This document shows positions 1,983 to 27,453 of a DNA stretch of 64,000 nucleotides, one piece after another. Location: contig JAHBWW010000002.1 in assembly GCA_019636795.1 (NCBI GenBank), positions 62,001 through 126,000 of the forward strand. The letters run 5' to 3'. The translations under genes were made by a program, and so were the position numbers. The notes beneath the pieces are model-generated. The model was not told the DNA's origin, made no database searches, and saw only the letters and a program-made list of their open reading frames with translations. Within the stretch, counting starts at the first letter, position 1. Every line of letters begins with the position of its first letter. This DNA is from Phycisphaeraceae bacterium (GTDB lineage Bacteria; Planctomycetota; Phycisphaerae; Phycisphaerales; UBA1924).

Positions 1983-3742
1983 TGCACACACGTTCCCGAG
2001 TTTATCATTTCGCGTTCGTGCTCATCTGCCTTGTCTGTTCTCACGCACGCGCCCAAACCAGCATCGAAGTCACCGCGGCTGTCGAACCCGAGCGCGCATA
2101 CCTCGGCAGCACGTTTCGCTATGTCATCTCCATTCTCTCAAACAAGAGGCTGGCAGTCGAAGATCCAATCGTCAATTTCCCAAATCAGATCCGTGTTCTG
2201 AGCACCGGCTCCTCTTTCATGTCACAGCCCGGACGCGCCCGCGACGCCAATGGCAACATCGTCGTCACCAACGTCATCACCCAGTCCTACACCTACACAC
2301 TGGCCGCATCCAGTTCGGGCACGCTCACGATCCCCTCGATGCAAGTCGTCGTCGATGGGAACACCTTCAACACCAATCCCGTTGATGTCGAAATCGTCGA
2401 GCCGGATCAGCCAGATGACTTTGCACTCGAAGCCCGCATCAGCAAGCCTCGCGCGTATGTCGGTGAACCAGTCACGCTTCGCCTCACGTGGTACGTCGGC
2501 CGTGATGTGCAGAGTTTCGCCCTTGCAGGTGGCGACATTCCCGATGGCCTCACCGTCGAGCCAATCAGCGATCCAGTCGCGTTTCGCGATCGCTCTGGGC
2601 AGTACTTGCGCACCGAAATCTTCGGCCAAACCATCTACGGCAAGCGCGGGCAAGGTTCCTTTCAGGGCACCGCCGCCCTCACACTCACCTACGAACTGCG
2701 CATCATCGCCGAGCGCCCCGGCACATTCTCCCTCGGCCCGATCGTCATGATCTTCGACACGCCTCGCCGCAACGAACGAGGCACAGAACGAGGCATCTCT
2801 CGCACCGCGCCCATCGAGTTCACCGCACGCCCCATCCCAACCGATGGTCGCCCGAGCACCTTTACCGACCTCATCGGTTCATACATGATCGAAGCAAGCG
2901 CCTCGCCCACCGATGTCAACGTCGGCGACCCTATCGCGTTGCAGGTGCGCATCACCGGCCCAAACGCCCCGCGCATCGAAGATGGACCCAATCTCGAAGT
3001 TCAGCGTCAACTCGTCGATCACTTCAAACTTGATACCACAGGCTGGACACGCGTGCCCGACAGCACCGGCCGCGCCGTCTTCCGCACAACCATCCGCGCA
3101 CTCAGCGAAAACGTCACCGAGATTCCCCCACTCGAACTTTCGTATTTCGAACCTATGCAGGGCAAATTCGGAACATCGTTCACGGCTCCCATCCCGATTA
3201 CCGTCCGCTCCACGCGGGATGTCACCCTGGCCGACGCGATTCTCAGCCCCCTTCGCGCCCCCGCCTCACGCTCCTCACTCGATCGCTCCGCCCCCGGCAT
3301 CTGGGCGCTGGCGTCTGCCGATGAACTGGCAAGACCAGCACCTCCTGAACGAATCGAGCAGTGGTTCTGGTACGCCATCGCCGCTGCCCCGACCGCTGCC
3401 CTGCTCGTCATCTTTTTTTCGACAGTGCGTGATCGCGCCACCCGACCCGGTGCTCGCGCACGTCACGCACTGCACAAAGCCCTCCGCCTCGCACGCGCAG
3501 GCAAGACCGATCTTGCCGTGCGACACTACATGGCCCTTCGTCTGGCCCAACGACCCGACGCAATCACCGCCGATGACTGTGCCCGCATTGCTGCTACTCC
3601 GCTCGAAGCACGCGAACTTGCAGCTGCACTTGAACGCACCGAACTGGCTCGCTTCGGGGGCCTCGATCGCCCCGCGCCCGATCCGGAGCGGTGCTGCCAA
3701 CTCCTCCGCAACGCACACGAGCACATGGAGCGCACACAATGA
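1982..3742 (+). CDS. BatD-like protein
   Basis: 586 residues. A signal peptide (MHTRSRVYHFAFVLICLVCSHARAQ region) is followed by a long beta-rich periplasmic part typical of BatD, with repeated Ig-like segments (VTAAVEPERAYLGSTFRYVI, ARISKPRAYVGEPVTLRLTW, ASASPTDVNVGDPIALQVRI). A single transmembrane helix lies near residue 465 (WYAIAAAPTAALLVIFF), and the C-terminal ~110 residues are cytoplasmic and helical. I chose the ATG at 1982, which overlaps the upstream stop as TAATG, over an in-frame TTG six bases earlier. BatD is the exported partner in Bat operons. The stop overlaps the next start as ATGA. Confidence 0.87.
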   Translation: MHTRSRVYHFAFVLICLVCSHARAQTSIEVTAAVEPERAYLGSTFRYVISILSNKRLAVEDPIVNFPNQIRVLSTGSSFMSQPGRARDANGNIVVTNVITQSYTYTLAASSSGTLTIPSMQVVVDGNTFNTNPVDVEIVEPDQPDDFALEARISKPRAYVGEPVTLRLTWYVGRDVQSFALAGGDIPDGLTVEPISDPVAFRDRSGQYLRTEIFGQTIYGKRGQGSFQGTAALTLTYELRIIAERPGTFSLGPIVMIFDTPRRNERGTERGISRTAPIEFTARPIPTDGRPSTFTDLIGSYMIEASASPTDVNVGDPIALQVRITGPNAPRIEDGPNLEVQRQLVDHFKLDTTGWTRVPDSTGRAVFRTTIRALSENVTEIPPLELSYFEPMQGKFGTSFTAPIPITVRSTRDVTLADAILSPLRAPASRSSLDRSAPGIWALASADELARPAPPERIEQWFWYAIAAAPTAALLVIFFSTVRDRATRPGARARHALHKALRLARAGKTDLAVRHYMALRLAQRPDAITADDCARIAATPLEARELAAALERTELARFGGLDRPAPDPERCCQLLRNAHEHMERTQ

Positions 3743-4542
3743 ACCGCCTGTGCCTCATCGTCTGCTCCATTGTCATGCTGCTTTTCGCACCATACGCTCG
3801 CGCGACGCCACCAGCCTCCGCCTCAGAGCACGCCATTTCGCTCTATGAGCAGGCCATCGGTGTCTATCGCTCTGATCCGATTCTCGCTCGCGCCCTCTTC
3901 GCTCAATCCGCTGCCGAGTTCACTCGTGCCTTGCGCGAAACTGGCCACAACCCCGAGTTGTACCGCGCCCTCGGGAATGCTGCCCTCCTCTCAGAACAAA
4001 CCGGGCAGGCAGTCCTCGCTCTTAACCGGGCGCTGGTGCTCGATCCACGCCACGCTCAGGCACGCGAAGCACTCACTGCTGCGCGGGCAGCAGTGCAGAT
4101 CGACATCGCACCCGCGCCCAGCCAGCGTGCGATCGACGTAGCCAACAGTTGGCGGCGCTTCGTCTCGCCCATCGTCGTTCAGTTCACATTTGTCCTGTCG
4201 TGGACCGTGCTCTGGATCTGTATCGCACGCTCTCGTTCAGTGCGCGCAAGCACCCCCGCCTTCATCCCCGCCATCGCTGCAATCCTGGCGTTGATCTCCG
4301 CCCTCGCACTTGTTGCCAGCGAGTGGGATCGTCGCACCGATACTCGCATCGTCGTACTCAACCCCACCTTTGGTTTCAATGGCCCCAGCCGCGACGTATA
4401 CGAGCCCACCTTTGAGCAGACCCTCCCGCCCGGCACCGAAGCCCGCGCTATCGAGTCCCGCAATGACTGGACGCGCGTACGCCTCCGCTCAGGTTCTGAA
4501 ACGTGGATTCCCACCGACACCTTCGATTACGTGCAGCCGTAA
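3739..4542 (+). CDS. BatE-like TPR protein with C-terminal SH3-like domain
   Basis: 267 residues from the ATG that overlaps the BatD stop (ATGA); longer in-frame starts would lie inside BatD. It has a signal peptide (LCLIVCSIVMLLFAPYARAT), then TPR-type helices (ALFAQSAAEFTRALRETG, LYRALGNAALLSEQTGQAVL). Two transmembrane helices follow (IVVQFTFVLSWTVLWICIA and FIPAIAAILALISALALVA). The last ~70 residues look like a bacterial SH3 domain (RAIESRNDWTRVRLRSGSETWI). This matches BatE of other Bat operons. It is the last gene of the operon and converges on purM with 55 bases between, where I see no strong terminator. Confidence 0.83.
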   Translation: MNRLCLIVCSIVMLLFAPYARATPPASASEHAISLYEQAIGVYRSDPILARALFAQSAAEFTRALRETGHNPELYRALGNAALLSEQTGQAVLALNRALVLDPRHAQAREALTAARAAVQIDIAPAPSQRAIDVANSWRRFVSPIVVQFTFVLSWTVLWICIARSRSVRASTPAFIPAIAAILALISALALVASEWDRRTDTRIVVLNPTFGFNGPSRDVYEPTFEQTLPPGTEARAIESRNDWTRVRLRSGSETWIPTDTFDYVQP

Positions 4543-4597
4543 TGAAACTCGCTCCTCGCAAGCGGCCATTACAAAAGACTTCATTGAGCAGTCATCA

Positions 4598-5677
4598 TCA
4601 CTTGAATCGGACAACGCCCTTGCCGCGCTCGATTCGTCCGATGGTCCAGACTCGTTCGCCAAACCGCTCCAGTTTCCGCACGATCGACTCGGCAAACGTC
4701 GGGCGCACGATCAGGCAGTACCCGATCCCCATGTTGAACACGCGCCACATCTCGTCTTCTGCCACCCCACCCTTCTTCTGAAGAAACGAAAAAACCGAAG
4801 GCTTGTCCCATGCCCGTCGATCCACGACTGCATCGACGCCGTCGTGCAGTGCGCGATTCAAATTGCCCTCGAGCCCGCCGCCAGTGATATGCGCCATGCC
4901 CGTCACAACTTTCTTCACGCGATACGCCCGCCCGAGCCGCACGATCGAATCCGCATAGATCCGCGTCGGCTCAAGCAGCACATCGCCCAGCACGCGCTCG
5001 CGATCCAACTCCGGATATACCTTGTCGAGCTTCAGTTTGGCTTTCTGTACGATCTTGCGAACGAGCGAGTACCCATTCGAGTGCACACCGCTCGACGCCA
5101 GACCCAGCACAATGTCTCCCGGCTCGACGCGCGTCGCATCCGTCGCCCGCGAAAGCTCGACCACCCCCACCGCAAACCCGGCCAGATCGAAGTCGCCTTC
5201 CTTGTACAGGTCGTTCATCTCCGCGGTCTCGCCACCAAGCAGCGCACACCGCGCAAGCTCGCACCCGCGGCTGATCCCGCTGAGCAGTGCCATCAGCATC
5301 TCCTGCTCCACCCGATGAACCGCGATGTAATCCAGAAAAAACAACGGCTCGGCACCCTGCACAATCAGGTCATTGACATTCATCGCCACAAGATCGATCC
5401 CGACCGTGTCGTACCGATTCATCTCTTTGGCAAGGTGCACCTTCGTCCCCACGCCATCGGCACACGACACCAGCACCGGCTCGCGGTAGTTGTGTCGAAA
5501 CAATTCCTCGTTGTAGTCAAGCCGGTATAGCCCCGCAAACCCACCGGGGTTCGCAATCACTCTCTGCCCGTGCGTCCGCCGCAACAGCGACCCGATCGAC
5601 GCTACGAATCGATCGCCCGCCTCGATGCTGACTCCCGACTCGGCATATGTCAGACCGCCAGATTTCGTCTTCGCCAT
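4598..5677 (-). CDS. purM: Phosphoribosylformylglycinamidine cyclo-ligase (AIR synthetase)
   Basis: PurM closes FGAM to aminoimidazole ribonucleotide with ATP in the fifth step of purine synthesis. The 359-residue product has the family's N-terminus ([20 protein letters not shown]), a glycine-rich loop ([12 protein letters not shown]), the [12 protein letters not shown] segment and C-terminal [13 protein letters not shown] start at MAKTKSGG because residues further upstream have no counterpart in PurM and run into the divergent region before metK. Length is close to the family norm. No other purine gene is nearby. Confidence 0.96.
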
Positions 5678-21086: not shown

Positions 21087-21986
21087 GTGACGAAAAGCAC
21101 TACATCTTCCTTTGCCCTGGCGAGCAGCACTTCGGCGTGCAGGCGAGGCTTTACGCTCATCGAGTTGCTCGTGGTCATTGCGATCGTGGCGCTGCTCATC
21201 GGGATACTGCTGCCAGCACTGGCCGGAGCGCGGGCGATCGGGCGGCAGTGTGTCGAACTCGCGGCAGCGCGGCAGATGATGGCAGCATCGACGATGTACA
21301 CCAACGACCATGCTGGGCGTGTGCTCGTCGGGTTCCCGACCAACGACATGGTTCGGGGCGCAAGCGCGCCGCTTGACCACGAAGGCAATCGCATCGCGGG
21401 CGGAGCGTCGAATGAGGAGATCGCCAAGCGGTATCCGTGGCGGATCGCACCGTATCTCGATTACAACTTCGGCGGGTTGTATTCATATCCGATCGACTTC
21501 ACGTTGCCGGATGTGCGCTACCGCGTGAGTCTGTATCCGACGCTTGGGGTGAACGCGAGTTTTGTCGGCGGGAGCAGCCGCGACTTTGCATTCGACAGCC
21601 GCATCCGCCAGATCTACGGGCCGTACTTCGTGACGCGGCTCGAAGAGGTGCGCAACCCGTCGGGGCTGATGCAATTCGTCTCGGCGCGCGGTCTCAATGA
21701 GGGCGATACCGCGATCGAAGGGCTCGACCCGAGGCAGCAAGGCTATTTTCTGGTGCGCCCGCCGCAGTTGTTTGCGCACACGGGAAGGCTGTGGCAACCG
21801 AAGTACGAGGCGTTCGCGACCGATGTTGGCACCAACTCGGGGTTCGTGGCGCTACGGCACCGAAGCAAGGCGGTCAGCGCGATGATCGACGGACACGCCA
21901 CGATGCGCGACTGGGACGATCTGAACGACATGCGGCTGTGGGCGAACCTGGCGAGCGGGCCGGGGTATGTGGTCGCGCCGCGGTGA
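21087..21986 (+). CDS. Pseudopilin with type II secretion/type IV pilus leader
   Basis: 299 residues starting with GTG at 21087; AGGAA at 21076-21080 gives good spacing. The leader ends RRG and is followed by FTLIELLVVIAIVALLIGIL, the prepilin peptidase site and hydrophobic helix with the conserved Glu5. The C-terminal ~250 residues form a globular domain of the type common in planctomycete pseudopilins (ITTSAG-like spacing is absent; FVALRHRSKAVSAMIDGHA near the end). Planctomycetes carry many such genes away from secretion operons; the role is unknown. Confidence 0.85.
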   Translation: MTKSTTSSFALASSTSACRRGFTLIELLVVIAIVALLIGILLPALAGARAIGRQCVELAAARQMMAASTMYTNDHAGRVLVGFPTNDMVRGASAPLDHEGNRIAGGASNEEIAKRYPWRIAPYLDYNFGGLYSYPIDFTLPDVRYRVSLYPTLGVNASFVGGSSRDFAFDSRIRQIYGPYFVTRLEEVRNPSGLMQFVSARGLNEGDTAIEGLDPRQQGYFLVRPPQLFAHTGRLWQPKYEAFATDVGTNSGFVALRHRSKAVSAMIDGHATMRDWDDLNDMRLWANLASGPGYVVAPR

Positions 21987-22022: not shown

Positions 22023-22160
22023 GTCGGTGGCCAGGCCCACGATCGCGTCCGGCTCGCCGTAGGCCGCGTAGTCGATCTCGAGGCTCGCCCGCTCGCGCAG
22101 CCACACCGAGTGGCTCGTGCTGCCCCAGTCGTCGCCGATGATGCGCCGGACGCTGAACAT
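22023..22160 (-). pseudogene. Duplicated 5' fragment of the RHS-tip gene
   Basis: This encodes MFSVRRIIGDDWGSTSHS... up to AYGEPDAIVGLATD on the minus strand, nearly identical to the first ~46 residues of the RHS protein at 24856-26118. Homology stops exactly where the dockerin-like insert begins in the intact gene. It is in the same orientation and sits at the far end of the island, so the two copies form flanking direct repeats about 3.96 kb apart. Confidence 0.85.
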
Positions 22161-22244
22161 GCTGTCAATCTCATGTGTCATACAGCATCGTCAAAGCGAG
22201 GGCCTTGATGCTTTCAAAAGCCGACTTTCGATATCTCAATGAGA

Positions 22245-22751
22245 TTACTGAAACCTACTCACAGTAGCCGCAAGAACCGTCTCGTCCTGCCGAATCACAG
22301 TGAAGCACGCAAAAGACAGATCACCAGAAGACCACTTGTACATTCTTACAAATAGCTCCTCATCACTACTTTCTTCAGCAACCTCAAAAATAAAATATAC
22401 TATTGGACCACCAAATGTTCCTGACGCAAAAGCATCTTCAACGGCGGGCGGCAGGGGAAAATCATCTACAAGGGGGCCGCGCCAGGGAACCGTAAACACA
22501 GGACTGGCACCGGACGATGGAACGATCTCAAATGAACTTCCTGCGACAGAGAGAAGGGCGGCATCGACGACGCCAGGAGATCCTTCCCTCTTTCGAACCC
22601 ATTCAACAGAGCACTCCCCCGTGATGACTACATCAAACATCTTCTGAATTCGAGCCTGACTCGGTTTTTGATTGCGTGCCATGATGAACACCCCGATCAG
22701 AATCAGGATGATGAGCACGCCCACGACAGCGAGTATCTGTTTCATATTCAC
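22245..22751 (-). CDS. Small membrane-anchored protein of unknown function (RHS island)
   Basis: 168 residues from a GTG at 22751 (an ATG six bases downstream is the alternative). One N-terminal transmembrane helix (ILAVVGVLIILILIGVFIM) is followed by a soluble domain of ~140 residues with strands such as GPIVYFIFEVAEES and FACFTVIRQDETVLAATV. No family recognised. Base composition is more AT-rich than neighbouring housekeeping genes. It lies in a minus-strand array downstream of the RHS-tip gene and follows repeat copy A, so a role as a membrane immunity-type protein is possible but unproven. Confidence 0.65.
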   Translation of the reverse strand: MNMKQILAVVGVLIILILIGVFIMARNQKPSQARIQKMFDVVITGECSVEWVRKREGSPGVVDAALLSVAGSSFEIVPSSGASPVFTVPWRGPLVDDFPLPPAVEDAFASGTFGGPIVYFIFEVAEESSDEELFVRMYKWSSGDLSFACFTVIRQDETVLAATVSRFQ

Positions 22752-22773: not shown

Positions 22774-23170
22774 GCGGGGTGGCACCGAAGTCCCCCTCTC
22801 CGTGCCACTGAAGTCGGCTTTGCAACTTCGGTGCCCGCAGCGCATCGAGACGTGCGGCCAGCCCGTGATGCCGGTCGGTTGCTTTCATGCCGACAGCCTA
22901 CCAGACAGCGCGCGTCGCGTCAAGCCAATGCGTGCAGGTAGGCCGACTGCGACGACGGGGCGTCAGACTTCGACCATGAAGCGCCAGACCCAAGGCCACA
23001 TGTGCGGCTTCAACACCGAAGTCTCCGAGCCGACTTCCGTGACTCGCAAGGCAGGCCGGGGTGGCAAGAACGTCGCCACCGTGCCGTGCAAGTCCATCGC
23101 ACCGCTCGCCGGAGGAACCAGCGAACGGTGGCACGGGTTTATTCATTTGATCGCTTGCACCCGGCCAAAA
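22774..23170. repeat. ~400-bp direct repeat, copy A
   Basis: About 397 bases very similar to 23767-24164. It begins GCGGGGTGGCACCG, contains the palindrome region GAAGTCGGCTTTGCAACTTC, and ends near GCACCCGGCC. It fills the whole gap between two minus-strand genes. A frame of about 90 codons on the minus strand is preserved in both copies but resembles no protein I know and has no ribosome-binding site. Confidence 0.9.
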
Positions 23171-23181
23171 GTCAATATCAA

Positions 23182-23748
23182 TCACCACGGAGGGGCTGTC
23201 CGTGGATACTCGAAGATGAAGCCGTATGCGGCTCGAGATCGAAGACCGATGGCTTCAGCAATCGGATCCGCTTCGAGATCTGAATTGCTGGCTGGGTATC
23301 GTTTCTGCAAGAAATCGACCAGTTGGCGCGCGATGGTGGAACCCAAGCCAAATTTATAAAGGGAAAAGCACTGAATTTTTTGTTCCTCGTTGCTCACCAG
23401 TACCAGGAAGTCGGGGCCGTCTGAGTTATCAAAATGGCCTGGAACATGCACAAGCATTGCAGCACTGACCGGCTCAAGGTCGATCACCATGATTCCCGTA
23501 GGAGAGGGTAAAAACAGACGAGTACCTTCGAGTCGAATCGTACGAGATTCAAAAAACACAATACTCAATATTGCAAAGAAGAGACAGCAAAACATCAAGC
23601 CAAATATATATTCACCCCGTATAGCGATGGCATCAAAAATCGCTAGCATTGCAAAGATCAAGCACACTGCAGCAACCGCGCCAGAAATCACAGTCCCAAT
23701 CCAGCAGGGAGGCTGGAACAACACCGTAGAGAAGTCGTCGTTTGTCAT
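23182..23748 (-). CDS. Two-helix membrane protein of unknown function (RHS island)
   Basis: 188 residues with two adjacent N-terminal transmembrane helices (VISGAVAAVCLIFAMLAIF and IFGLMFCCLFFAILSIVFF) and a C-terminal soluble part resembling the PH-like domains that follow paired helices in small bacterial membrane proteins (ESRTIRLEGTRLFLPSP, FLVLVSNEEQKIQCFSLYKF). No specific family assigned. AT-rich relative to the chromosome. Each flank is a copy of the ~400-bp repeat, so gene plus repeat may move or duplicate as a unit. Confidence 0.65.
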   Translation of the reverse strand: MTNDDFSTVLFQPPCWIGTVISGAVAAVCLIFAMLAIFDAIAIRGEYIFGLMFCCLFFAILSIVFFESRTIRLEGTRLFLPSPTGIMVIDLEPVSAAMLVHVPGHFDNSDGPDFLVLVSNEEQKIQCFSLYKFGLGSTIARQLVDFLQKRYPASNSDLEADPIAEAIGLRSRAAYGFIFEYPRTAPPW

Positions 23749-23766: not shown

Positions 23767-24164
23767 GCGGGGTGGCACCGGAGTCCCCCCTCCCCGTGCC
23801 AACGAAGTCGGTCTTGCGACTTCGGTGCCCGCAGCGCATCGAGACGTGCGGCCAGCCCGTGATGCCGATCGGTTGCGTTCATGCCGACAGCCTACCAGAC
23901 AGCGCGCGTCGCGTCAAGCCAATGCGTGCAGGCAGGCCGACTGAGACGACGGGGCGTCAGACTTCGACCATGAAGCGTCAGGCCCAAGGCCACATGTGCG
24001 GCTTCAACACCGAAGTCTCCGAGCCGACTTCCGTGACTCGCAAGGCAAGCCGGGGTGGCAAGATCGTCGACACCGTGCCGTGCAAGTTCATCGCACCGCT
24101 CGACGGAGGAACCGGTGAACGGTGGCACGGGTTTACACATTTGATCGCTGGCACCTGGCAAAAA
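23767..24164. repeat. ~400-bp direct repeat, copy B
   Basis: Second copy of the repeat at 22774-23170, with scattered substitutions and essentially no large gaps. It contains a perfect CGAAGTC/GACTTCG inverted repeat around 23803-23824. It lies between the lipoprotein gene and the two-helix protein gene. Confidence 0.9.
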
Positions 24165-24178
24165 ACCAAGATTATTTC

Positions 24179-24859
24179 TTAGGGACTAGCAGGGTCGCCT
24201 GATGGTGGCCACTGAAACTCACTCACTACAAACCAAATTTGATATAGTCCAACAAACACGTTGTCCTCATCAAATATGACGACAACGGCTGCCGAGCTTG
24301 CTGGGCCAGGATGATTGAGGAATGAATTCATCGTATAAAGGGTCGATGTAGCAGAAGAAGTTATAACTTTGCTCGAAGGCCAGGCAGTATGCTCCGCTCG
24401 TGCATGCTCCAGATCGGAATATGATCTCGACAGCCAGCTCTTCGGCGGTGCATTTTGGCCAAATGCAGAAGCCAAAATGTCCGGATCTGGATACTCATAA
24501 TTTAGCGGGATTTCGATAGCCGGTGTTGCCGAAAGCCGCTGCAGAAGCGTACCCTGCACTTCGAGCATTGGTACACCAATTCGTTTCTCAAGTTCCTTCC
24601 GATGTTGGCCAATCATACCCTGGAGCATTTCGCTCATCGCATCAGCGAGTGCCATTTCCATTCTGGAGGGCGATCGACGATTTCGAGGAACGCCTCGTGC
24701 GGACATGTAGTCCGTCACAAATCTATGATATGCAGCATGATCCGCCGGTGGAGTGGGGAATTGCGACGGCAATTGGGCCGGGGTTGACGGATTGCAGCAA
24801 CCCAAAAGGTAATAGGACACAAAGACAATACTGAGATATAGGCGGCATGAAAGGTTCAT
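24179..24859 (-). CDS. Lipoprotein translationally coupled to the RHS-tip gene
   Basis: 226 residues with a lipoprotein signal: hydrophobic core LYLSIVFVSYY and lipobox LLGC at Cys21. The mature domain is about 205 residues, helical at first (RMEMALADAMSEMLQGMIG, HRKELEKRIG) and then mixed, with strands AAVVVIFDEDNVFVGLYQIW near the end. No family recognised. Its ATG overlaps the RHS stop as ATGA, which ties its expression to the RHS protein. Lipoproteins and membrane proteins often serve as immunity partners for polymorphic toxins, so an immunity or accessory role is a reasonable guess. AT-rich. Confidence 0.7.
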   Translation of the reverse strand: MNLSCRLYLSIVFVSYYLLGCCNPSTPAQLPSQFPTPPADHAAYHRFVTDYMSARGVPRNRRSPSRMEMALADAMSEMLQGMIGQHRKELEKRIGVPMLEVQGTLLQRLSATPAIEIPLNYEYPDPDILASAFGQNAPPKSWLSRSYSDLEHARAEHTAWPSSKVITSSATSTLYTMNSFLNHPGPASSAAVVVIFDEDNVFVGLYQIWFVVSEFQWPPSGDPASP

Positions 24860-26118
24860 CGAATAGCTCTTGGATCACCCCATTCTCGACGAATCCTATT
24901 TCGATCATCATGCAGGTACGGAATAAACTCGCCGTCATAGGTACCAGAGGGAACAAAGTCAGGATAATAGTCTCGATGGTTTGTTGACATAAGAAGATCG
25001 TGTGCAAAGTGAAAGTACGGGGTCGTTCTGAACGGATCCCATCCACAATCACATGCAGCGATATAACCAACCGATAAGCCGTATCCGGCCAAACCTGCCA
25101 TTTGACTGAAGGAAATTGGCCTGTTCTCCATGATATGATTTTCCCACCAGTTGCTGCCATCGGAGTGGGCGTCAAGGTATATACCAAACAATTCTCCTCG
25201 CCGGCTCGCCATCATCCACTGGTACAACAATACACCGCGACCTGATCCGCTGACCGTTAAGACGTAATATTTATGTGCACGCATCTGATCAATTTGCCTC
25301 TTTCGAATCTCGAGTCGAGTACGAAATGTGAAAATCGTATTGGGAATCGAGAAATTCTGGTCTGGACACAACTGATCGGAGCCCGAAATGTCGCGAAAAG
25401 ATACATCGCCGCGATGAACAGTCTTCACTGGCTGCGGATGGGAAGAAATCCACTTTGAAAATTTCCCATGTTCCAAGCCCAGTTCCGAGGCCAGCTCAAA
25501 AATCGTATCATAATCATCATCAGACCCTCTAGCGCCCTTGGCCTCCGTTCTGGCAGTCGCGGTTGGTTGACCATTGCGTCTCACAACCCACAGTCCAATA
25601 GGATCACTCGCGAGAATCGGCGTACCGCCAGCATAGAGATACAAACTCCCCCCATCCACAAACCCCGCCGGGTCCCTCTGTAGCCACCTTCCCTGCTCCG
25701 GGTCCAGCACGCGGTGCCGCACATGGTACAGCCCTGTGATCGCGTCGTGGCGGTAGCCCGCCAGCCCGAACGGGTTCTCTTCAGCGTTCCGCCTGCCCGT
25801 CGGGCTCAGCGGCTGCAGCGCCGTCGACAGGTCCGCCAGAAAAAACTGCACGTCATAAAAATCCCATTCGCTGTCGTTGTTGCGATCCGCCTCGGGATCC
25901 TCAGCCGACAGGTGGGCCATGAACGCCTGCATGTCGAAGAAGATATCGACCTCGCCGTCGCCGGTGAGATCCATCCACGGATCGGTCGACAGGCCCACGA
26001 TCGCGTCCGGCTCGCCGTAGGCCGCGTAGTCCAACTCGAGGCTCGCCCGCTCGCGCAGCCACACCGAATGGCTCGTGCTGCCCCAGTCGTCGCCGATGAT
26101 GCGTCGGACGCTGAACAT
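24856..26118 (-). CDS. RHS-core tip protein with internal dockerin-like insert and C-terminal caspase-like candidate domain
   Basis: 420 residues. Residues 1-45 match the start of an RHS core (SVRRIIGDDWGSTSHSVWLR, DYAAYGEPDAI). About residues 46-100 form two EF-hand-like loops (DLTGDGEVDIFFDMQAF, DRNNDSEWDFYDVQFFLADL), as in the dockerin-type proteins here. The RHS core then resumes (NPFGLAGYRHDAITGLYHVR, LDPEQGRWLQRDPAGF, LYLYAGGTPI, DPIGLW). The last ~240 residues are a variable tip with no family I recognise; FGIYLDAHSDG and, 39 residues on, VGYIAACDCG resemble the His and Cys motifs of caspase/CHAT-type peptidases. There is no signal peptide and no long repeat region, so it is a truncated or orphan tip. 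Overlaps the lipoprotein start by four bases; 39 bases from tyrS. Confidence 0.8.
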   Translation of the reverse strand: MFSVRRIIGDDWGSTSHSVWLRERASLELDYAAYGEPDAIVGLSTDPWMDLTGDGEVDIFFDMQAFMAHLSAEDPEADRNNDSEWDFYDVQFFLADLSTALQPLSPTGRRNAEENPFGLAGYRHDAITGLYHVRHRVLDPEQGRWLQRDPAGFVDGGSLYLYAGGTPILASDPIGLWVVRRNGQPTATARTEAKGARGSDDDYDTIFELASELGLEHGKFSKWISSHPQPVKTVHRGDVSFRDISGSDQLCPDQNFSIPNTIFTFRTRLEIRKRQIDQMRAHKYYVLTVSGSGRGVLLYQWMMASRRGELFGIYLDAHSDGSNWWENHIMENRPISFSQMAGLAGYGLSVGYIAACDCGWDPFRTTPYFHFAHDLLMSTNHRDYYPDFVPSGTYDGEFIPYLHDDRNRIRREWGDPRAIR

Positions 26119-26157
26119 GCTGCTGGCAGTATATCGGCCGCGCTATCGTTGGGGCCT

Positions 26158-27453
26158 ATGGTGAGTGATTTTCTTGATGAACTGAAGTGGCGCGGGCTGA
26201 TCAAGGATGTGACCGATGAGGCCGGGCTGCGCACGCATCTGGCGGGCGGGGTGCGGAAGATCTATGCCGGGCTCGATCCGACGGCTGACAGTCTGACGAT
26301 CGGGAACCTGGTCACGATCATGGCACTCGCGCACGCCAAGCGGGCGGGGCACGAGGCGGTGGTGGTCATGGGCGGCGGCACGGGGCTGATTGGCGACCCA
26401 TCGGGCAAGAGCGCCGAGCGGACGCTGATGACGGCCGAAACTGTGGAGCACAATGTGCGCAAGCAGAGGCCGATCTTCGAGCGCGTGCTCGGGAGCGTCG
26501 ATGGGCCGGCGTTTGTGATTCGCAATAATGCGGACTGGCTGACGAAGATCTCGTATATCGATGCGCTGCGCGATATCGGCAAGTATTTCAGCGTGAACAT
26601 GATGATGCAGAAAGAATCGGTGCGCGAGCGGCTGCACAACCGCGAGCAGGGGATCTCGTACACCGAGTTCAGTTACATGATTCTGCAGGCGTATGACTTT
26701 CTGCACCTGTTTCGCGAAGAGGGCGTGACGGTGCAGTTTGGCGGGAGTGATCAGTTTGGGAATATCGTGGCGGGGATGGATCTCATTCGGCGGGTTTATG
26801 CGGCTGAGGGTGAGGCGCATGGGGCATGTTTCGGCCTCACCTGGCCTCTGGTCACCAAGGCGGACGGCGGGAAGTTTGGCAAGACCGAGACCGGGGCGAT
26901 CTGGCTGACGGCCGAGCGGACGAGCCCGTACGCATACTACCAGTTCTGGCTCAATGCGAGCGATGATGATGCGCTGAACTGGCTCAAGGTGTTTACGTTT
27001 CTGCCGCGCGAGCGGGTCGAGGCGATCGCGGCGTCGCACGCGGCCGACCCGGGCAAACGCGAGGCGCAGCGCGTGCTGGCGATGGAGGCGACGACGATTC
27101 TGCACGGGCGCGCGGCGGCCGAGCAGGCTGAGGCGGCGGGCAAGGCGCTGTTCTCGGGCGAGATCGACACGCTCGATGAGGCGACGCTGCGCGAGGTGTT
27201 TGCGAGCGTGCCATCGAGCGATCATGCTGCGGCGCTGCTTGCGGCGGGCATCGATCCGGTGGACCTGCTGGTAAGCACGCAACTGGCTTCGAGCAAGCGC
27301 GAGGCGCGGGAGTTTGTGGCGAATGGGTCGGTGAGTGTCAATGGACAGAAGATCGGGCCTGAGACGCGCATTTCGGGCCATCATCTCCTGTTTGGATCGC
27401 TGATTGCGCTGCGGCGGGGCAAGAAGCAGTGGCACCTGACGCGGTGGGCGTGA
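26158..27453 (+). CDS. tyrS: Tyrosyl-tRNA synthetase
   Basis: Class I synthetase charging tRNA-Tyr; 431 residues. YAGLDPTADSLTIGNLV occupies the HIGH position, FGGSDQFGNI and YSYMILQAYDF-type segments bind tyrosine, KFGKTETGAIWL is the KMSKS-type loop, and a C-terminal S4 domain follows (VSTQLASSKREAREFVANGS). The HIGH motif reads TIGN, so its first His is Thr, which is unusual. I start at MVSDFLDELKW; further upstream codons are antisense to the RHS gene. Only 39 bases separate it from the divergent RHS gene, so there is no room for a T-box leader. Confidence 0.96.
   Translation: MVSDFLDELKWRGLIKDVTDEAGLRTHLAGGVRKIYAGLDPTADSLTIGNLVTIMALAHAKRAGHEAVVVMGGGTGLIGDPSGKSAERTLMTAETVEHNVRKQRPIFERVLGSVDGPAFVIRNNADWLTKISYIDALRDIGKYFSVNMMMQKESVRERLHNREQGISYTEFSYMILQAYDFLHLFREEGVTVQFGGSDQFGNIVAGMDLIRRVYAAEGEAHGACFGLTWPLVTKADGGKFGKTETGAIWLTAERTSPYAYYQFWLNASDDDALNWLKVFTFLPRERVEAIAASHAADPGKREAQRVLAMEATTILHGRAAAEQAEAAGKALFSGEIDTLDEATLREVFASVPSSDHAAALLAAGIDPVDLLVSTQLASSKREAREFVANGSVSVNGQKIGPETRISGHHLLFGSLIALRRGKKQWHLTRWA

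Follow-up and report, generated by a model that had tools for sequence, protein, structure and literature searches.

Several described systems resemble the locus analysed here. In Enterobacteriaceae, downstream fragments of the rhs core form large direct repeats, and two E. coli strains carry a downstream core fragment with no obvious tip (Jackson et al. 2009, PMC2935791). The accessible part of that study also presents a displacement model with circular intermediates, which is hypothetical. For Salmonella, the available sections of Koskiniemi et al. 2014 (PMC3967940) give evidence of recombination across a core repeat of 522 bp with 95% identity. Homology-anchored insertion was proposed for the immunity gene arrays of V. 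cholerae, according to the available text of Kirchberger et al. 2017 (PMC5361080). A literature search found no paper combining a Planctomycet, an RHS repeat and a dockerin.

The locus lies in a 64,000-nucleotide stretch of a Phycisphaeraceae bacterium genome (GCA_019636795.1, here G000), called the window below. It fits the features of the enterobacterial arrays: an RHS core end with a variable tip, a downstream core repeat, and a GC-poor tip and downstream region. The downstream core copy, referred to as the stump, has no tip and probably remains from an earlier, displaced module.

Layout of the island

The island comprises 4.1 kb between a pseudopilin-like gene and tyrS (Table 1) and holds only one tip. 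The stump starts 37 bp past the stop of the pseudopilin-like gene, and the tip-side repeat copy ends 35 bp before the start of tyrS. Most of the tip domain and of the ORFs has a GC content of 46-54%; values rise up to 63% in the D1 repeats and are 55-70% in the flanks.

Table 1. Features of the island and its neighbours, in window coordinates
Feature	Position	Strand	Basis
Pseudopilin-like gene, left neighbour of the island	21087..21986	+	PF07963, TIGR02532; relatives have orthologues close to tyrS
RHS-core stump without a tip; second 141-bp repeat copy	22024..22164	-	Repeat comparison, flank alignment, L013 match
168-aa ORF, candidate orphan immunity gene; N-terminus hydrophobic (by eye)	22245..22751	-	
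D1 repeat copy a, with GAAGTCGG/GCGACTTC-type hairpin	22780..23145	.	Repeat search
188-aa ORF, hydrophobic N-terminus (by eye), between D1 repeats, candidate orphan immunity gene	23182..23748	-	
D1 repeat copy b (94% identity with copy a)	23773..24135	.	Repeat search
226-aa ORF, 4-bp overlap with tip stop, candidate cognate immunity gene	24179..24859	-	Position
Headless RHS tip ORF, 420 aa, candidate toxin	24856..26118	-	ORF list, TIGR03696, NF041540 (sub-threshold)
First copy of the 141-bp repeat, opens the tip ORF; internal RHS core, 5'-truncated	25982..26122	-	Repeat and L013
tyrS, to the right of the island and divergent from the tip	26158..27453	+	PF00579, E 2.3e-72

The tip ORF consists of a core remnant (residues 1-46), a dockerin-like segment (50-95), an RHS-associated core end (111-176) and a C-terminal domain (177-420). 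The core end was recognized by TIGR03696 (NCBIfam, E 9.2e-16), and the dockerin-like match from residue 50 (NF041540, E 0.013) is below the cut-off. The motif DPIGL can be read in the sequence, and 244 residues without a family match complete the ORF; this C-terminal domain is a candidate toxin. The ORF had no match in Pfam or among PDB sequences, and NCBIfam returned RHS and dockerin models only. Structure prediction from the single sequence gave a model of no use (mean pLDDT 33.4). H and C motifs picked out by eye had a protease-like look, but no search result backs this reading and it was dropped.

The three small ORFs are best read as immunity genes on account of their positions. The 226-aa ORF has a lipoprotein-like N-terminus (by eye). 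None of the three reached the cut-off of any Pfam or NCBIfam family, and a phmmer comparison among nine candidate immunity proteins from five loci of this genome gave no cross-matches. Apart from the 141-bp repeat, the island has a single direct repeat, the D1 pair, which brackets the 188-aa ORF. Hairpins of the D1 type occur 12 times in the genome when up to 3 mismatches are allowed; the reversed control gave 0. Six of these hairpins are in three RHS loci: the window island, L060 and L141.

Tip and tyrS are divergent, and their ATGs are separated by 39 bp (26119-26157); a TATACT motif, found by eye, is located 9 nt before the tip ATG. Judged from this arrangement, transcripts of the orphan tip might have almost no leader, and the former upstream region of tyrS may have been lost.

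The direct repeat and its boundaries

The first-pass annotation had reported a copy of the tip start in the same orientation at the far end of the island. This copy is real. The two stretches form a direct repeat of 141 bp on the minus strand, identical at 135 of 141 positions (96%) and spaced 3,958 bp apart, and they bracket the island at its very edges, as had been proposed. Of the six mismatches, four are at third and two at first codon positions; by the mismatch list, the longest identical run shared by the copies is 42 bp. A 22-mer taken from the repeat, searched with up to 3 mismatches, hits two sites in the window (0 expected by chance), and both are the repeat copies.

Homology stops sharply at both ends. 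Rather than running far beyond the ATG, it ends 4 nt upstream of it, and on the downstream side it reaches tip residue 45-46. In terms of core position, the starts of the two copies agree to within 3 bp. The 300-bp flanks upstream align with a score of 18 (mean of 200 shuffles 17.1, maximum 24) and those downstream with a score of 17 (mean 18.7, maximum 27, likewise 200 shuffles). A larger segmental duplication is ruled out by this lack of homology in the flanks past the repeat.

The first-pass annotation placed the end of homology exactly at the dockerin boundary. The two do lie within about four codons of each other (residue 45-46 versus 50), but they do not coincide exactly. A dockerin-like segment occurs at the same core site in other RHS genes, both in this genome and in those of relatives (partial alignment, by eye). 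Such segments are very common in this genome: residues 1-173 of the tip have about 100 matches in it, most of them confined to the dockerin-like part.

The repeat is an internal piece of the RHS core

The repeat had been taken for the start of an RHS gene, a reading that another locus of the same genome contradicts. At L013 (G000:C2:566623-566889) the sequence upstream of the peptide encoded by the repeat is still RHS core (...YIDDLVARRVQHGLPGTTYTPPDGAWSHGDLALTLSDS|MFSVRR...); MFSVRR...GLA is there the end of a longer, frameshifted core remnant that extends upstream through YIDD. By this comparison the 141-bp repeat is a stretch of RHS core coding sequence with no natural gene start, and its ATG is internal.

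The genome (3.49 Mb) contains four copies of the repeat, none of them inside an intact RHS gene. The two copies outside the window are C2:566624-566761 in L013 (138 bp) and a partial one at C2:454920-454989 in L014 (70 bp); between L013 and L014 the homology reaches further upstream than the window repeat does. Three extra bases of the window stump (TGA) are shared with L013, which may be chance. The L014 copy belongs to a lone window-type core fragment (L014 8880-8990, at C2:454.9 kb) with no RHS tip in the 18 kb around it, and is possibly a scar.

The stump of L013 (9639-10410, minus strand) is chimeric. It follows the main-type core to about YIDD and then the window-type core up to the stop: 552 bp of the locus' own main core are repeated at 96% before the switch. 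Such a switch would point to earlier recombination between different types of core.

No intact RHS gene with the window-type core was found in the genome assembly, which is 97% complete. Contig C3 begins inside an RHS gene (bases 1-856), which places at least one assembly break in an RHS core. An intact main rhs gene with the window-type core may be situated in such a gap.

Tipless stumps across RHS loci

An HMM of the RHS core end was built from loci of this genome and of relatives, and 8 own and 26 relatives' loci were scanned with it. One relatives' locus has no tip and was dropped, leaving 33 loci with a tip (8 own, 25 relatives'). The count excludes L155 and L014 (no tip), the L119 fragment (model positions 98-195, class "other") and hits to dockerin alone.

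A tipless core stump is present in 14 of the 33 loci. Among own loci it was found in six of eight: L013, L062, L063, L141 and L142 by the HMM, and the window, whose stump the HMM missed and which was counted through DNA identity. L060 and L061 lack one. Among relatives the number is 8 of 25 (L114, L116, L118, L120, L144, L146, L147, L154), with the caveat that these loci were hand-picked from the hit list, that several come from one genome (four from G006, three from G051) and are not independent, and that some are cut by contig ends. All 15 stumps detected by the HMM are on the strand of the tips and downstream of a tip, and 13 of them have no further tip beyond. The two internal hits, in L114 and L144, may come from genes that were split. 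In L144 (G006) model position 82 is both the end of a core piece and the start of the next tip, which lies about 1.35 kb further on (2805-3074 and 4428-4940); this RHS gene was apparently split by an insertion.

The best match of a stump is the core of its own locus in 10 of 14 cases. The exceptions are L062 (whose own core is off the contig), L063, L142 and L147.

The 15 stumps that the HMM detected have 3' ends anywhere between model positions 42 and 152; match boundaries and E-values of the local HMM are fuzzy by some residues. This scatter speaks against the first-pass view of the dockerin boundary (about position 110) as a special joint, even though in L013 the start of the orphan tip (112) and the stump end (110) nearly meet. 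An integron-like site-specific cassette system was likewise rejected: the ends share no constant site, and Pfam and NCBIfam scans of the four island ORFs detected no recombinase.

Two further loci of this genome have one headless tip between direct repeats. In L141 the repeats are 310 bp long (94.8% identity) and 2,182 bp apart, and in L142 they are 242 bp long (93.8%) and 2,638 bp apart. Ahead of the truncated core, the L141 repeat also takes in hairpin DNA of about 62 bp that is not part of the core; it therefore arose after the truncation.

A different arrangement is seen in L060 (G000:C2:163000-182000), where three RHS tips stand in a row on the minus strand (ORFs 13284-11707, 11052-8683 and 8600-7107). 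Each has its truncated core behind its own hydrophobic, signal-peptide-like N-terminus (by eye), as if these orphan tips had gained secretion signals of their own.

The same site in relatives

The full stretch of the repeat is confined to this genome among 163 genomes of its family. Weak matches to the repeat query, mainly to its upstream YIDD part, are present in 8 other genomes of the 163. The pseudopilin-like gene and tyrS are on one strand in six of seven relatives' loci (G010, G013, G015, G017, G023 and G024, not G002). The gap between them is about 85 bp in G023 and 228 bp in G017; in the closest relative, G024, it is 1,361 bp and contains an unrelated 408-aa gene. Comparison of the tip with these seven loci gave dockerin-like segments only and no RHS piece, and the tip protein has no relative in the genome contig collection. 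The first-pass annotation had proposed looking in relatives for another tip attached to the stump; these searches turned up none. No relative of the stretch was detected among viral contigs. Plasmid matches cover the general RHS part only and are at most 37% identical among the matches listed.

Origin of the stump

The stump is probably the eroded remainder of an RHS module that was displaced through Rhs C-terminal displacement. The first-pass annotation had offered this as one of its readings, and it gains support from the 13 other RHS loci, in this genome and in relatives, with such a stump. The sharp repeat ends, the core in L013, the best matches within own loci, the GC-poor region and the short distance between the neighbouring genes where the island is absent also favour it. 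Tip and immunity cassettes of the lineage would be gained and shuffled through recombination in the RHS core. At the window locus, an incoming tip-immunity cassette would have recombined with a resident, already 5'-truncated core fragment between the pseudopilin-like gene and tyrS. One core copy would have landed before the new tip, and the old one would have been shifted to the opposite island end. Deletion would then have removed the tip of the old module, leaving 141 bp. In this account the crossover, the sequence of steps and the disappearance of the old tip are inferred. Recombination between the two copies could still take place at a low rate and delete the island.

Some observations count against displacement. 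With no intact RHS gene of this core type in the genome, the island does not form the tail of any main rhs gene. Behind the stump, where the immunity gene of the displaced module would be expected, there is no orphan immunity gene, and 4 of the 14 stumps do not have their best match in their own locus. The nearly coincident 5' ends of the window copies are unexpected from two independent truncations. Insertion into a truncated fragment, or its duplication, explains them better than two random truncations, and these ends keep the insertion of a circle alive as a rival.

In that scenario, which is possible but rather unlikely, a circle-forming unit of tip and immunity gene entered a lone tipless core scar by a single crossover and can leave again via the repeats. 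It would account for repeats at both island edges that start at the same core position. L141 and L142 have the same one-cassette plan, with the L141 repeat postdating the truncation; the lone core fragment in L014 offers an example of a scar, and circular intermediates have been proposed in the available text of Jackson et al. 2009 (PMC2935791). However, neither an excised form nor an empty scar is known here, and relatives have no RHS piece at the site. The differences at 6 of 141 sites indicate that the event was not recent, no episomal or viral relative was found (the plasmid matches listed are at most 37% identical), and many stumps in relatives end at differing points. The three headless islands of one genome (window, L141 and L142), which share the plan, form the basis of a broader reading that we regard as doubtful: the RHS islands of the family would be homology-bracketed cassettes, and stumps at the 3' end and lone scars such as L014 would be reusable docking sites where whole toxin-immunity cassettes come and go as circles made by recombination, far from any main rhs gene.

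It is improbable that a headless tip module was duplicated in tandem and nearly the whole second copy was then deleted. Such a duplication accounts for the equal 5' ends, and likewise for L141 with its upstream hairpin DNA, but neither a second tip nor duplicated immunity genes have left a trace, and D1 is the sole additional direct repeat. That the 141-bp stretch is a small repeat with a mobile or regulatory nature of its own, as its four genomic copies and the position of one of them (L014) away from any RHS tip could suggest, is very hard to believe, since copy ends vary (141, 138 and 70 bp), L013 and L014 share longer upstream homology, the copies read in frame as RHS core and there are only four in 3.49 Mb.

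Comparison with known systems

Displacement of Rhs C-termini and tipless downstream core fragments are already known, as the available text of PMC2935791 documents. With those arrays, in the parts described there, the island shares downstream core fragments in the same orientation that form direct repeats, a near-identical core within the locus and a GC-poor tip region. In contrast to them, the island has no intact main rhs gene attached and carries a dockerin-like segment between the core and the RHS-associated end. It also belongs to a lineage that we take to be distant, in which tipless stumps are frequent (14 of 33 loci).

The orphan rhs-CT/rhsI modules (PMC3967940; Poole et al. 2011, PMC3150448), so far as the available sections of these papers describe them, are similar in having a truncated rhs gene, DPxGL before a variable tip and then a small ORF. 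They too lack an export signal and have a core stretch that could recombine. The repeated core is shorter here, 141 bp at 96%, whereas the Salmonella repeat in the available text of PMC3967940 has 522 bp at 95%. The island also differs in that it is not downstream of a main rhs gene and that its tip ORF has an ATG, a possible start; its anatomy fits such a module, with a candidate toxin and a candidate immunity gene.

In the displacement of T6SS effector-immunity modules in V. cholerae, new pairs anchored by upstream homology likewise oust old ones, and orphan immunity genes are kept. The effectors there are of another type, and an RHS-core stump is not described in the available part of that report (PMC5361080).

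What is new at the present locus is the lineage, the lack of a main gene and the frequency of tipless stumps. The picture of Rhs displacement is thereby extended from Enterobacteriaceae to a distant lineage where tipless stumps are regular, and the bracketed loci in one genome provide a set in which the idea of circular intermediates could be examined.
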